Shown here: positions 11,616-25,614 of the stretch, in pieces | How positions within the stretch are numbered: the first letter of the stretch is position 1 | Layout of the letters: each line of letters begins with the position of its first letter | From: Phycisphaerae bacterium | Lineage (GTDB): Bacteria; Planctomycetota; Phycisphaerae; JAJVII01 | DNA: 64,000 bases | Assembly: GCA_022072085.1 (NCBI GenBank) | Contig: JAJVII010000036.1 | Span: forward strand, 1 to 64,000 | Direction: 5' to 3' | Made by a program: the position numbers and the translations under genes | Notes under the pieces: generated by a model | The model's database searches: none | Seen by the model: the letters and a program-made list of their open reading frames with translations, nothing else | What the model was told of the DNA's origin: nothing

Positions 11616-12266
11616 TCAGGCCTGGATGAAGACGCCTTCGCAGCGCGGCAGCAGGCTGTCGGCCAGCCGAACCGCCAGCCAGGTCGCCAGGCCCGCGGCG
11701 GCGCCCAGCCAATGGGCGATCGGCGTTGCGGCGCCCATGCCCGCCGCCATCGGCAGGCTGAAGGTCGCGGCGCCGGAGAACGCCTCTGCCGACAGCTTGG
11801 CGAAGTAGACGCCGGCCAACCCCAGCAGGGCGAATCGTCTCGCCCGTCCTGCCCGCCAGTCGCCAGCGGATCGCCACACGACCAGCCAGCCCAGCACGAC
11901 GGCCGTGTTGTCCAGCCCGCTCCAGCCGCGATAGAGGCTCATCCGCGGCTGGCCCAGCCAGACGCCCAGCCCGATGGCGGCGGCGCCGACGCACGTGGCC
12001 GCCAGCCAGACCCGCCGCCCCACTTGCCGCTCGAAGATCAGCCCTAGCGCGACCCACGGCAGCAGGTCGAGCCAGAAGTGAACCGCCGACCAGTGAACGA
12101 AATGGCAGGTGACCAGCCGCCAGAGCTGGCCATCCGTGAGGGCGGCCCGGTCGAACTGAAGCCAGGTGGCCATGCGTTCAGTTAACCCGGCGTCGCCGAC
12201 GATCCAGCCGATGTTCGCGGCGGCTGCCAGCAGGGCGATCCAGATTGTCCAGGGCACGCGTCGCAT
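11616..12266 (-). CDS. Rhomboid-family intramembrane serine protease, rhombosortase-like
   Basis: 216 residues, about six membrane segments. The start ATG (12266) has GGAG eight bases upstream; a longer upstream reading is arginine-rich out-of-frame sequence. After the first helix comes LWRLVTCHFVHWSAVHFWLD, equivalent to the rhomboid HxxxN region with Asp at the usual Asn place. The catalytic serine is Ser116 in YRGWSGLD and the catalytic histidine is His185 in PIAHWLGAAAG. The short length and the GWSG/H-W-x-G spacing match rhombosortases, which process GlyGly-CTERM proteins. The VIT/VWA gene immediately upstream on the same strand (gap about 70 bp) ends in a GlyGly-CTERM-like tail, so the two are very likely enzyme and substrate. 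The protease fold is near certain; the rhombosortase subtype is inferred. Confidence 0.8.
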   Translation of the reverse strand: MRRVPWTIWIALLAAAANIGWIVGDAGLTERMATWLQFDRAALTDGQLWRLVTCHFVHWSAVHFWLDLLPWVALGLIFERQVGRRVWLAATCVGAAAIGLGVWLGQPRMSLYRGWSGLDNTAVVLGWLVVWRSAGDWRAGRARRFALLGLAGVYFAKLSAEAFSGAATFSLPMAAGMGAATPIAHWLGAAAGLATWLAVRLADSLLPRCEGVFIQA

Positions 12267-12336
12267 TGCTCGTCTCCGCGGGTCGACGGGTGACTTCCCG
12301 GGGGGCGCCCCCCCGCGCCCCGCCGGGAAGGGGCCG

Positions 12337-14394
12337 TCACGAACGGGACCACCGCCGCCGAGGCCAGCCCAGCGCCAGCAGGCCCGTGAAGGCGCCCACG
12401 AATACCCACTCCACCCCGCCGCCGCCGAGGTCCTGCGAATTCGACGGGCTCGACGGCGATGCGGGCGACGCCGGCGTGCTGTTGCCGGTCGCGACGGCCG
12501 GGCCGCCGACAACTTCGCCGCTCCAGGCGTAGCGCTGCTGCTGGGCGAGCCGCTCGGCTTCGACGCGGTCGGCGTTCAGCCGCTCGATGTTGAAGCGGCG
12601 GTAGGCGTCCTCGTCCTCAAGCACGAGGAACGCCGTGTAGGGCGTGACGATCGAGAACTTCGTCGCGAGGTCCACGATCTGCTTGCGCTCGCGGTCGCCG
12701 CCCTCGCCGGCGTTGATCCGTCGGCCCAGCGTCTCGCACGCGTTTTGAGCCCACATCCGCTCGATCTCGGGGTTGGAGACGTCCTGCTTGGGCCAGGTCG
12801 CGTCCGTGCGGAACGTGACGGCCCGGCCGTCCACATTGGCCCCGATCGACAGCGTCGACGCCGACGTCCTGCTGTAGCGTCCGTAAAGCACGATCCGCTG
12901 GCCGCGGTAGATGTTCGGCAGCGGCGCGGGCAGCACGTCGCTCACCTTCTGGTCGCCCCAGTCGATGGTCAGGTCGCGCATCACGGGCGACTGGATCTTC
13001 ATCTGAAGGGCCGCGACCTTTCGTCCCAGGTCGTCCTGGCCGCTGACGAAGTCGGCGTATCCGCCGGTCTTGTCGGCCAGGGCGCTGAGCAGCGGGCGGT
13101 TGATCTCGTTGCCGATGCCGAAGCTGAAGACGGTGCTGTTGGCCTGGCGGCGGTGGAGAATCTGGAGATAGCCGGTCAGGTCCTCGCTGCCGGTGGCCTG
13201 CCCGTCGCTCAGCAGCACGATCGCGTTGCGGAGTTGTGGATCCTGCTGCTCGGCGGCCAGTTCCAGGGCGGGGACCAGGTCGGTGCCGCCGGCGGCCTTG
13301 AGTTCGGCCATGTAGCGGCGGGCCTTGGCCTTGTTCTCGTCGGTGGCGTGCATCGGCGACTTGGCCATTCCCTCGGGCGCGATGTTGAAGCTGATGACGT
13401 TGAACGTGTCCTCCGGCCGCAGGTTCGTGAGCATCTGGTCGGCGGCCGCCCGGGCCAGGGCCAGCTTGCCCAGCTCGCGCATCGAGCCGGAGACGTCCAG
13501 CACGAACAGGTAGTTGGCCGGTTCCAAGACGCGGTCGAGCTTCTCGGACGGGGTGATCTGGAGCATGAAGTACCCGTCGCCGCCATCACGGCGGCTGGTG
13601 ACCAGGTTGACGCCCGTCTCCTCGCGCTGAAGCTCGCAGACGAGCACGAAGTCGCGGTCGATGCGGCCCTTGGCGACCTCCAGGCCCGCGCGGTATCGGC
13701 CCGGGGCGGCCTCCTTGGCCAGCAGGTCCTTCTCATGCGACGGGCTGTAGACCCGCTTCATCGGGATGTTGCTCTGCACGTCGACCAGCACGGAGAAGTC
13801 GCCCTCCAGGGCCGCGTTGGCGACGCCCTCGACTTCGAGCGGGTAGGTGTAGACCAGGTTGCCCGCGTCGTAGTCGGCCGGCTGGTAGTAGGCGATCTGA
13901 ATCCGCTGCTCGCCGTTGGCCGGCACGGGGAAGACGCGCATCTCGAACCACTTGTAGTTGACCTGCTCCAGCAGGCCCGGGTCGCGGCGGGTCGAGGTGA
14001 CCTGGCGGTAGATTTCGCGGGCCTTCTCCCTCTCCAGCACTTCGCCGACGACCTCCTTGCCGTTGATCCACATCGAGAAGTTACTCACCGACGCCCGGGC
14101 CGGCACGGGGAAGCGGTACATCGCTTCCAGTTGCACGTTCGAGTGGTTTCGGAAGGTCTGGTCCACGGTGGTCACGGCGATGCCGTTGTTGATGTGGACG
14201 ACGACCTTCTGGTTGGCGATGGCCAGCGAGTTGTCCGCCCCGGTGGGCACGAGCAGCCCGGCTGCCTGCGACAGGGCAGGGCAGGCCAGCAGCAGGGCCA
14301 GGACGACGGCCGCCCATCGCCCCGACCGCGTCCGCGGCGCCGTGCGTCCGCTCTCCGCGCCGATCCGTCCGTCATGTGTTCCAGCCGTTCTCAT
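12337..14394 (-). CDS. VIT and von Willebrand A domain protein with GlyGly-CTERM-like sorting tail
   Basis: 685 residues. An N-terminal signal peptide (residues about 25-45) is followed by a vault-inter-alpha-trypsin (VIT) domain at about 46-180 (YRFPVPARASVSNFSMWING, REKAREIYRQV). A VWA domain follows from about 293 with an intact MIDAS motif D-V-S-G-S-M at 300-305. Near the end a Pro/Ser linker leads to GGGG (657-660), a 17-residue hydrophobic segment and the basic tail PRRRWSRS, the tripartite shape of GlyGly-CTERM signals. AAGGAGG precedes the ATG. VIT/VWA proteins with C-terminal sorting signals are known as sortase targets in marine proteobacteria; here the adjacent rhomboid takes the place of the sortase. 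Probable role: a surface adhesion or scaffold protein binding metal through the MIDAS. Likely controlled by the operator-like repeats just upstream. Confidence 0.9.
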   Translation of the reverse strand: MRTAGTHDGRIGAESGRTAPRTRSGRWAAVVLALLLACPALSQAAGLLVPTGADNSLAIANQKVVVHINNGIAVTTVDQTFRNHSNVQLEAMYRFPVPARASVSNFSMWINGKEVVGEVLEREKAREIYRQVTSTRRDPGLLEQVNYKWFEMRVFPVPANGEQRIQIAYYQPADYDAGNLVYTYPLEVEGVANAALEGDFSVLVDVQSNIPMKRVYSPSHEKDLLAKEAAPGRYRAGLEVAKGRIDRDFVLVCELQREETGVNLVTSRRDGGDGYFMLQITPSEKLDRVLEPANYLFVLDVSGSMRELGKLALARAAADQMLTNLRPEDTFNVISFNIAPEGMAKSPMHATDENKAKARRYMAELKAAGGTDLVPALELAAEQQDPQLRNAIVLLSDGQATGSEDLTGYLQILHRRQANSTVFSFGIGNEINRPLLSALADKTGGYADFVSGQDDLGRKVAALQMKIQSPVMRDLTIDWGDQKVSDVLPAPLPNIYRGQRIVLYGRYSRTSASTLSIGANVDGRAVTFRTDATWPKQDVSNPEIERMWAQNACETLGRRINAGEGGDRERKQIVDLATKFSIVTPYTAFLVLEDEDAYRRFNIERLNADRVEAERLAQQQRYAWSGEVVGGPAVATGNSTPASPASPSSPSNSQDLGGGGVEWVFVGAFTGLLALGWPRRRWSRS

Positions 14395-14758
14395 TGCGAG
14401 CCTCCTTCTATAAGAGTTGGCTAGTGCTAACTAGTTGAAGTGTCAAAAAAAAGAGAACAGGAATGCCGCCACGGTTCCTCGCTGTCGCGATCGCTTGCGG
14501 CTCGCGGCTAGACGGGCATCTGTGCACGCCGCCGGAGGCACGCATCACGCTAAGTAAGTAAGTGCTAATATTGTTCCGTTGCATGTTCCGTCCTGATTCG
14601 TGAGAAGGCCGGCCATGACTCGATTGATAGTGCTAGCATACGCTAACAATGTGGGGGCGTCAAGAGCATTCCCCCCGCGGTCCTGTGGAATGGCGTCGCG
14701 GATCGGGCGCCCGGGCGGCGAAGGGGTGGGGCAACGGCCTTGGGGGCAACGGCTTAGG
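14395..14758. promoter_or_regulatory. 364-bp upstream region of the VIT/VWA gene with three AGTGCTA repeats
   Basis: No gene is visible. On the minus strand a TTGACA -35 (14446-14441) is followed by the palindrome CTAGT-GCTA-ACTAG (14421-14434), sitting where the spacer and -10 should be. AGTGCTA also occurs at 14561-14567 and at 14629-14635, the latter extended to TAGTGCTAGCATACGCTAAC. The cluster looks like a multi-site operator. The nearest regulator is the TetR-family gene ending at 14759. Confidence 0.5.
14421..14434. promoter_or_regulatory. Palindromic operator candidate CTAGTGCTAACTAG
   Basis: Perfect 5-bp arms around GCTA, 27 bp before the VIT/VWA start and directly downstream of the TTGACA box. 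Binding here would block RNA polymerase, so repression is the expected mode. Confidence 0.45.
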
Positions 14759-15388
14759 TCACCGGCTGCCGACCAGGCCGTGAATGATCGCCTCCAGCGA
14801 CTGGTTCACGAAAAACTTCTTCTTGAACACCGCCGGGTCCAGGTTGCGGGCCATCGTGTGGCCGATGGCGACCTGGATGAGGAACCATGCAGCCAGTTGT
14901 GGGTCCAGGTCGCCGCGAAACGAGCCGCTCTTCTGGCCCCGCCTGATGATGTCCAGGGCCAGCGTCTCGTAAGCTTCGTAGTGCCGGGCCAGCAGCGGCC
15001 GAACGTCCGGCAGCCCCCGCTTGCCCTTGGCCGACCCGCCCAGGCTGGCCAGGGCGCGGTTGATCATCGCGAATGGCTCGGCGAACTGCGCGGTGAGTTG
15101 GGGGTAGGTGACGCAGATCGCCCGAAGCTGGGCCAGCGGATCGTCGCCCTGGGCCTGCACCAGGGCCTGCATCTGGGCGATGACTTCGTTGGTCAGGCTC
15201 TCCAGCAGCGTCAGGAACAGGTCGCGCTTGCTCCTGAAGTGCCGGTAAAGGATCGGCTCGGTGACGCCGGCGGCCTTGGCGATGGCGGCGGTGGTCGTCT
15301 GGTTGTATCCCAGCCTGGCGAACAGGCGTTGAGCGACCTCCATGATCTGCTGACGGCGGTCCTCGGCCTTCATGCGATGCTTGGCCAT
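14759..15388 (-). CDS. TetR/AcrR-family transcriptional regulator
   Basis: 209 residues starting MAKHRMKAEDRRQQIMEVAQ, with GGAGG 11 bases upstream; the longer in-frame reading adds a non-conserved Pro/Gly-rich stretch. The helix-turn-helix lies at about 32-51 (TTAAIAKAAGVTEPILYRHF), followed by SKRDLFL, the classical end of the TetR_N domain. The remaining 150 residues form the helical ligand and dimer region, with no recognisable ligand signature. It lies between the alcohol dehydrogenase gene (151 bp upstream) and the VIT/VWA gene (364 bp downstream), all on the minus strand. The palindromic AGTGCTA sites downstream make the VIT/VWA-rhomboid pair the most likely target, though regulation of the dehydrogenase is also possible. 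Confidence 0.93.
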   Translation of the reverse strand: MAKHRMKAEDRRQQIMEVAQRLFARLGYNQTTTAAIAKAAGVTEPILYRHFRSKRDLFLTLLESLTNEVIAQMQALVQAQGDDPLAQLRAICVTYPQLTAQFAEPFAMINRALASLGGSAKGKRGLPDVRPLLARHYEAYETLALDIIRRGQKSGSFRGDLDPQLAAWFLIQVAIGHTMARNLDPAVFKKKFFVNQSLEAIIHGLVGSR

Positions 15389-15539
15389 TGCCTGCGAGCC
15401 TCCAACTTCAGGTATTGTCGGTGTCGGCGATCGCCCGGGGAGGGAGACGCCTTTGCCGCCCACCAGATGTTAGCGATTCCGAGCCGGGAATGAAAGGGGT
15501 CAGGCGGCGCACGACGGCATTGGTCCCGGGCCTGGGGGG

Positions 15540-24939: not shown

Positions 24940-25614
24940 CTACGCCCGGCGGCGACGCCGCTGAGCGATCATCCCAAGCCCGCCGAGAGCCAGAAGGCCC
25001 AGCGTGGCCGGCTCGGGAACCGAAACCGACGGCTGCACGAAAATGTCGCCGGTGTTGTTGAAAATCTGGTCATAGCTCGACGTTGCGCTGAAGCTGGACG
25101 CGAAGCCGGAGGTCGTGATGGAGGTGTCGCCCAGGTAGAGGATCATCCCGCCCTTGCCGAAGACAAGGGGGGGATTGTCGCCGTAGGCGGGCGCCAGGTA
25201 GCCGCCGGTCACGTCAAACGTGAACTCGATCGTGACGTTGCCGGAGTTGAAGTCGAATCCCAGAAGTTCCAGGTCGCCGGAGAGTTGGAGGCCGACGTCG
25301 GACCCGTGCGTGCCGCTGATCGTGAACGACCCGCCGCTTAGCACGCCGGCGTTGCTGATCGTGGCAGACAGTGAGAAACTGGCCGAGGTGATCGTCTCGA
25401 AGGGGGCGCCGGATGGCGGAGCCGGGTCATACTGGAAGCTGCCGCTGGACGAGGCGGTGAAGGCCTGCGTGCCGGCGTTGTAGCTGCCGATCAGGCTGAG
25501 CGACGTGCTCACGTTGATATCCGGCTGGTCCTGGATCAGGTTCAGCGGAGCGGCCTGGAGCGTGCCTGCGAACAGTACAACCACAAAACCGGCCAACAAT
25601 GCGAGACGGGTCAT
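24940..25614 (-). CDS. PEP-CTERM sorting-signal exported protein
   Basis: 224 residues starting MTRLALLAGFVVVLFAGTLQA, with GGAGGGAGAG before the ATG at 25614. The body is a Ser/Thr/Gly-rich beta domain without a known catalytic motif. The C-terminus VPEPATLGLLALGG, then GLGMIAQRRRRRA, is a textbook PEP-CTERM signal: the PEP motif, a hydrophobic helix and an Arg-rich end. It should be processed by an exosortase, not encoded in this window, and released to the surface or exopolysaccharide. It is the third exported gene in a row on the minus strand, 131 bp upstream of the GYWKTH gene, and may share regulation with it. Confidence 0.93.
   Translation of the reverse strand: MTRLALLAGFVVVLFAGTLQAAPLNLIQDQPDINVSTSLSLIGSYNAGTQAFTASSSGSFQYDPAPPSGAPFETITSASFSLSATISNAGVLSGGSFTISGTHGSDVGLQLSGDLELLGFDFNSGNVTIEFTFDVTGGYLAPAYGDNPPLVFGKGGMILYLGDTSITTSGFASSFSATSSYDQIFNNTGDIFVQPSVSVPEPATLGLLALGGLGMIAQRRRRRA

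Follow-up and report, generated by a model that had tools for sequence, protein, structure and literature searches.

Two neighbouring genes on the minus strand, between positions 11616 and 14394, are the subject of this analysis of a stretch of 64,000 nucleotides (hereafter the window), comprising positions 1 to 64,000 of contig JAJVII010000036.1 from the Phycisphaerae bacterium assembly GCA_022072085.1, a draft genome of 72 contigs that is about 97% complete. The first gene encodes a protein with VIT and VWA domains and a glycine-containing C-terminal tail, and the second encodes a rhomboid protease of the rhombosortase family. A preliminary description of this DNA had proposed that the two work together. 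We consider it very likely that they form a dedicated C-terminal sorting pair of one substrate and one enzyme, in which the VIT/VWA protein would be exported by Sec, cleaved at its glycine run and delivered to the cell surface. The features of the locus are as follows.

12337 to 14394, minus strand: VIT/VWA gene, an open reading frame of 685 amino acids, similar to ITIH heavy chains; predicted rhombosortase substrate.
14263 to 14394, minus strand: signal-peptide-like N-terminal segment, residues 1 to 44, ending in VVLALLLACPALSQA ahead of an Ala; read by eye from the sequence.
13888 to 14211, minus strand: VIT domain (PF08487, E 4.5e-32).
13048 to 13509, minus strand: VWA domain (PF13768, E 6.3e-18; also PF13519) with an intact metal-ion-dependent adhesion site (MIDAS; DVSGSM, GGTD, LSDG).
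12340 to 12426, minus strand: C-terminal sorting tail GGGG-VEWVFVGAFTGLLALGW-PRRRWSRS, from the sequence and our tail profile A4.
12415 to 12426, minus strand: GGGG glycine run, the predicted cleavage region; the glycines are kept in relatives, and the exact site is placed by analogy with VesB.
11616 to 12266, minus strand: rhombosortase gene, a six-helix rhomboid of 216 amino acids (TIGR03902, PF01694, AlphaFold2 model).
11919 to 11921, minus strand: codon of the catalytic serine, Ser116 (GWSG), which is invariant across an alignment of 54 rhombosortases.
11712 to 11714, minus strand: codon of catalytic His185 (AHWLG), invariant in the same 54.
11907 to 11909, minus strand: codon of Asn120, four residues after the catalytic serine (Ser+4; SGLDN); His in described rhombosortases and Tyr205 in GlpG.
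14635 to 14663, minus strand: weak sigma-70-like promoter match TTGACG-17-TATGCT upstream of the pair, by consensus only.

The rhomboid gene starts 70 bp downstream of the VIT/VWA stop codon on the same strand, and the VIT/VWA ATG is preceded by a strong Shine-Dalgarno sequence, AAGGAGG. The encoded protein begins with a hydrophobic segment and an AxA-like site, judged by eye only, which together make a putative signal peptide. The metal-site residues of its MIDAS are invariant across 20 relatives. The predicted structure of the protein matches ITIH1 (6fpy) over the whole body (Foldseek E 1.3e-37, 595 columns), and its sequence matches among the heavy chains are to ITIH4 and ITIH1. Against TIGR03788, which describes a marine proteobacterial sortase target, it scores 272.7 bits, under the cut-off of 551.65, and partial matches to TIGR04477 and TIGR04286 are weak and confined to the VIT domain.

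The C-terminus reads as it had been described, with a disordered Pro/Ser linker (ending SNSQDL), GGGG, 17 hydrophobic residues and finally PRRRWSRS; in the predicted structure the tail itself is also modelled as disordered. This is a tripartite layout of a Gly-rich motif without Cys, a transmembrane helix and a basic cluster, and it is common to the 103 VIT/VWA-rhombosortase pairs that we compared. GGG is invariant in all nine full-length VIT/VWA relatives, and at least three glycines lie within the five residues before an [AP]x[DEG] motif in 88 of the 103 tails. One relative (locus L024) carries a tail that passes the GlyGly-CTERM model TIGR03867, with 23 bits over a cut-off of 19.7. An LPXTG motif was not found in the window protein, whose gene neighbour is a rhomboid and not a sortase; its tail also has no PEP motif and is absent among the listed matches of this genome to the PEP-CTERM model TIGR02595. 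An identity as an LPXTG or PEP-CTERM tail was considered and rejected.

The downstream protein is the six-helix rhomboid that had been reported, with GWSG and the His of AHWLG, and its proposed identity as a rhombosortase was borne out by the curated model TIGR03902 (87.2 bits, cut-off 84, E 1e-24). Its AlphaFold2 model (mean predicted local distance difference test score 90.6) has the GlpG fold, the best PDB match having an E-value of 1.7e-5 and a template modelling score of 0.72 by target. A fold common to this enzyme and GlpG would also be expected of a housekeeping GlpG-like rhomboid lying here by accident, but such a reading is highly improbable, as the protein scores only 35 bits against 250 with the GlpG model. 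This genome has four other clear rhomboid matches, which score lower, at 30-51 bits, and none of them is over the TIGR03902 cut-off. Moreover, of the 298 genomes searched in the class, no more than 14 have a protein over that cut-off, and in 14 of 14 the VIT/VWA gene lies beside it. On these scores and this restricted distribution, a housekeeping rhomboid of the GlpG type was rejected as far as sequence allows.

The pairing extends beyond the class. A phylum sample of 392 genomes contained 29 further genomes with a rhombosortase over the cut-off; one locus (L048) runs into the end of its contig and was left out of the count, and the VIT/VWA gene adjoins the enzyme in 23 of the 28 that were testable. 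Taking the class and phylum sets together, 42 over-cut-off rhombosortases of Planctomycetota could be tested, and 37 of these have a Gly-tailed VIT/VWA gene as a neighbour, in agreement with the adjacency that had been proposed. Five genomes of the phylum sample have no VIT/VWA neighbour. In one (L093, G470) the neighbour is a rhombotarget lipoprotein (TIGR04179, 305.6 bits), and L094 (G595) is of the same kind, with a near-identical tail; next to the rhombosortase of L096 is the gene of yet another protein, whose tail contains Gly, and the remaining two have no obvious target. Because some rhombosortases thus adjoin unrelated proteins with Gly-rich tails, such as the TIGR04179 lipoprotein, the tail is the feature that they share.

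The survey was also made from the substrate side, by scanning nine VIT/VWA sequences against genome contigs. This gave 80 loci, three of them too short to judge, and a rhombosortase was adjacent at 74 of the 77 that could be tested, the exceptions being L123, L119 and L163 (described below). The titles of the loci name Planctomycetota, Desulfobacterota, Nitrospirota, Verrucomicrobia/Kiritimatiellae, Lentisphaeria, Chlamydiota, Acidobacteria, Myxococcota, Binatia and Hydrogenedentota, although these are the titles of metagenome-assembled genomes and some are surely wrong. The spacing is short, with the VIT/VWA stop within 350 bp of the start of the enzyme core in 93 of 103 pairs. Chance adjacency was rejected on the recurrence of the pairing in both surveys.

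Adjacency could in principle reflect operon inertia; the tail would then simply anchor the protein in the membrane by its C-terminus, and the rhomboid would act on something else. Cleavage is so far predicted from sequence, and two tailed VIT/VWA loci (discussed below) have no rhombosortase next to them, both of which would fit this explanation. We nonetheless regard it as improbable, given that adjacency holds over many phyla at 35-45% protein identity, that the tail and the enzyme active site covary, and that no rhombosortase adjoins the VIT/VWA genes whose products lack the Gly motif. The last point comes from tail-less paralogs, at the 17 loci that rank next in the class and at two further loci of this genome, all of which end in soluble C-termini.

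Several individual loci were seen in passing. At L024 and L027 a single gene of about 200 amino acids (L024:5208-5807, L027:5221-5838) separates the VIT/VWA gene from the rhombosortase; it is conserved and has a Cys-containing, lipoprotein-like N-terminus, and a search of the L024 copy gave no Pfam match. The VIT/VWA gene of L029 (G067) and the rhombosortase of L109 (G182) appear frameshifted, with the L029 tail in another frame. L123, from an uncultured Pirellulaceae, encodes a close VIT/VWA relative whose tail is of PEP-CTERM type (TPEPSSQ...), a natural tail swap; it has no adjacent rhombosortase, and none over the cut-off was found in its genome. At L103 (G592 C138), a second gene resembling rhombosortases, though scoring under the cut-off, adjoins that of a reprolysin-like metalloprotease whose tail reads GGGGGGPVDPFLVVVLAG, which suggests another type of dedicated target. 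L095 (G496, core 415-975) matches TIGR03902 with its catalytic Ser replaced by Gln (YCGLQAVLHG) and is possibly an inactive rhomboid; the product of its neighbour has a C-terminus like that of UvrA, and no target is visible. In the window, the promoter match upstream of the pair was the only one observed, where shuffled sequences gave 0.2 on average, and a TetR-family regulator gene (14759-15463, minus strand) lies upstream on the same strand.

To look for other substrates, as the preliminary description had suggested, profile A4, built from 25 tails, was searched in nine genomes. The VIT/VWA tail was clearly the first match in eight of the nine. No second Gly tail was found with A4 in the genome of the window, where the readable runners-up were PEP-CTERM tails that matched in the transmembrane and basic part only; the relation in this genome looks one-to-one. 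The same genome encodes about 95 PEP-CTERM proteins over the TIGR02595 cut-off, one of them in the window (24946-25020, minus strand). With a single Gly tail next to such a set, the private rhombosortase pair looks to coexist with a large many-to-one PEP-CTERM system. The type II secretin GspD was found over its cut-off in all nine genomes checked for it (this genome and eight relatives).

Some of our observations weigh against a dedicated rhombosortase pair. The tail of the window protein gave no match to the GlyGly-CTERM model TIGR03501 at E<=10, so that the earlier label of "GlyGly-CTERM-like" stands, whereas the tail is not a GlyGly-CTERM by model; the two near-threshold matches to TIGR03501 in this genome are both PEP-CTERM tails. 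The enzyme is only just above the TIGR03902 cut-off, and it has Asn where His at Ser+4 (SGMLH type) has been singled out as a nearly universal rhombosortase mark (PMC3237569). This His is not part of the curated TIGR03902 definition, and owing to its absence the window enzyme is a divergent member of that family. Profile A4 contains the tails it was searched against, that of the window included, so that their E-values are inflated (1.3e-9 for the window tail, the top match of its genome) and the lack of a second match is the informative part; a second target could also be missing since the genome is a draft. Two full-tailed VIT/VWA proteins have no adjacent rhombosortase; for L119 none was found genome-wide, while the genome of L163 has one elsewhere. 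Finally, no experiment on any planctomycete pair was found in the literature. Against these points stand a rhomboid that is not of the ordinary kind, a pair that is adjacent in relatives and tail glycines that are conserved, the three matters on which the preliminary description had made its proposal depend.

The residue at Ser+4 is Ser, Thr, Cys or Ala in most planctomycete relatives, and His in the group with GPVGP tails. Two tail types can be distinguished among the 103 pairs, GGGxA[IL]DP, whose third signature residue is Asp or Glu, and GSGPVGPLF, where that residue is Gly. All 67 enzymes paired with an Asp or Glu tail have S/T/C/A/N at Ser+4, and 33 of the 36 paired with a Gly or Asn tail have His or Tyr, so that 100 of the 103 pairs are concordant (Fisher p 7e-24 from the raw counts). 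The discordant VIT/VWA pairs are L137 and L029 (Gly with Cys) and L053 (Gly with Asn). On an enzyme tree built without the compared columns, the informative change is a switch inside the Asp/Glu clade, where L026, L028, L031 and L032 have a Gly tail together with Tyr. Pairs of the rhombotarget-lipoprotein kind break the rule, as at L241, where an SLGG tail occurs with Thr at +4. Because the covariation needs only 3-4 changes on the tree, and because an independent-pairs test had no power (median p 1), we regard a specificity code as hypothetical and coevolution as unproven. On the enzyme side, Ser+4 probably contributes to the fit with the substrate, as does, on the tail side, position three of the [AP]-x-[D/E/G] signature. 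More tentatively, the rhombosortases dedicated to VIT/VWA proteins may be a lineage whose specificity pocket has been swapped and in which Ser+4 would set which tail is cut, small residues (S/T/C/A/N) going with Asp or Glu (A-I-D-P, V-E-W) and His or Tyr with Gly (P-V-G-P). Such pairs might then be orthogonal lock-and-key sets that are passed together between phyla.

The preliminary description had put forward as new that, outside the proteobacteria, a rhombosortase should be dedicated one-to-one to a VIT/VWA protein, and in this respect the proposal was largely anticipated. Haft and Varghese (2011) reported 16 genomes with a rhombosortase and its sole GlyGly-CTERM target within one gene; among these adjacent single-target pairs are one from the planctomycete Rhodopirellula baltica and one from Opitutus terrae, a verrucomicrobium, and their Fig. 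3C shows vault/VWA (that is, VIT/VWA) proteins with GlyGly-CTERM, LPXTG and PEP-CTERM tails (PMC3237569). The system is a variant of this known one, to which our analysis adds the breadth of the pairing and the covariation of tail and active site. A literature search, mostly outside subscription journals, found no later paper joining single-target pairs with VIT/VWA tails, gave no result for GlyGly-CTERM in combination with VWA, and found no prior report of TIGR03501 missing such tails, of a replacement at Ser+4 or of two tail types tracking that residue.

With the described rhombosortase/GlyGly-CTERM system (TIGR03902/TIGR03501; RssP and VesB of V. cholerae), the window pair shares an over-cut-off rhomboid with a Ser/His dyad, a tail of Gly motif, transmembrane helix and basic residues, and the gene adjacency seen for single targets. 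It differs in that the usual tail there is SGGS, whereas here it is GGGxA[IL][DE] or GSGPVGPLF; in that Ser+4 is His in the described enzymes but Asn in the window and Ser, Thr or Cys in most planctomycete pairs; and in that a single-target layout is the exception there and the rule among the pairs surveyed here. The marine proteobacterial target TIGR03788 and its sortase TIGR03784 likewise combine a homologous VIT/VWA body with a single target adjoining the enzyme, but use LPXTG and a sortase in place of a Gly tail and a rhomboid. VIT-domain substrates with tripartite tails also occur in PEP-CTERM/exosortase, XrtN and MSEP-CTERM systems (TIGR02595, TIGR04477, TIGR04286), where the PEP-CTERM tails have the PEP motif that the window tail lacks. 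The rhombotarget lipoprotein TIGR04179 is similarly a dedicated target encoded beside its rhombosortase, although the protein is unrelated to VIT/VWA and its tail is of the GGGSVGG type. Animal ITIH1 (6fpy/6fpz) is alike over the whole body of VIT, VWA, beta-sandwich and helical parts, whereas the animal chains have no Gly tail, transmembrane helix or rhomboid and use another attachment chemistry. ITIH chains are processed at their C-terminus and covalently attached to chondroitin sulfate.

By analogy with V. cholerae, we infer cleavage, lipid attachment and a secretion route for the window protein. It would be exported by Sec and fold in the periplasm into a body of VIT, VWA and beta-sandwich parts like that of ITIH heavy chains, while its C-terminal helix would retain it in the inner membrane. 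The adjacent rhombosortase would then cut in or next to the glycine run by means of the Ser116/His185 dyad, and the new C-terminal Gly might be joined to a phosphoethanolamine lipid for outer-membrane anchoring, as for V. cholerae VesB, before the processed protein reaches the surface of the cell, for which type II secretion is the probable route. For a GlyGly-CTERM protein of V. cholerae, cleavage by the rhombosortase, a modification of the ethanolamine type and export by the type II secretion system have all been demonstrated (PMC6219818). The mature protein most likely serves in MIDAS-dependent adhesion or matrix binding, as its intact MIDAS and modelled ITIH-like body suggest.

The rhomboid could alternatively be a sheddase that cuts the tail solely to release a soluble VIT/VWA protein, with no transfer to lipid. 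Rhomboids are hydrolases by default, the sequence holds no sign of a transfer step, and V. cholerae is the one species in which the ethanolamine-type modification has been shown, a separate transamidase not being excluded there (PMC6219818). We think this rather unlikely, however, as the GlyGly-CTERM proteins of V. cholerae end up surface-associated after processing (PMC6219818; PMC13393428), and as the same protein family elsewhere bears LPXTG or PEP-CTERM tails (PMC3237569), whose enzymes fix proteins to the surface.

If the VIT/VWA protein and its rhombosortase are indeed a dedicated pair, the scattered observation of 2011 becomes a general rule, in which the common rhombosortase of Planctomycetota and several other phyla is the private enzyme of one ITIH-like surface protein, and this would hold even in a genome that also runs a PEP-CTERM system of about 95 proteins. 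There is a gain for annotation too, in that the current GlyGly-CTERM model overlooks the window tail. Natural matched pairs in which both an active-site residue and the tail vary make substrate choice by an intramembrane protease directly testable. That one VIT/VWA body carries a tail for a rhombosortase, a sortase or an exosortase, depending on the bacterium, suggests that selection has acted on surface attachment and not on its chemistry.

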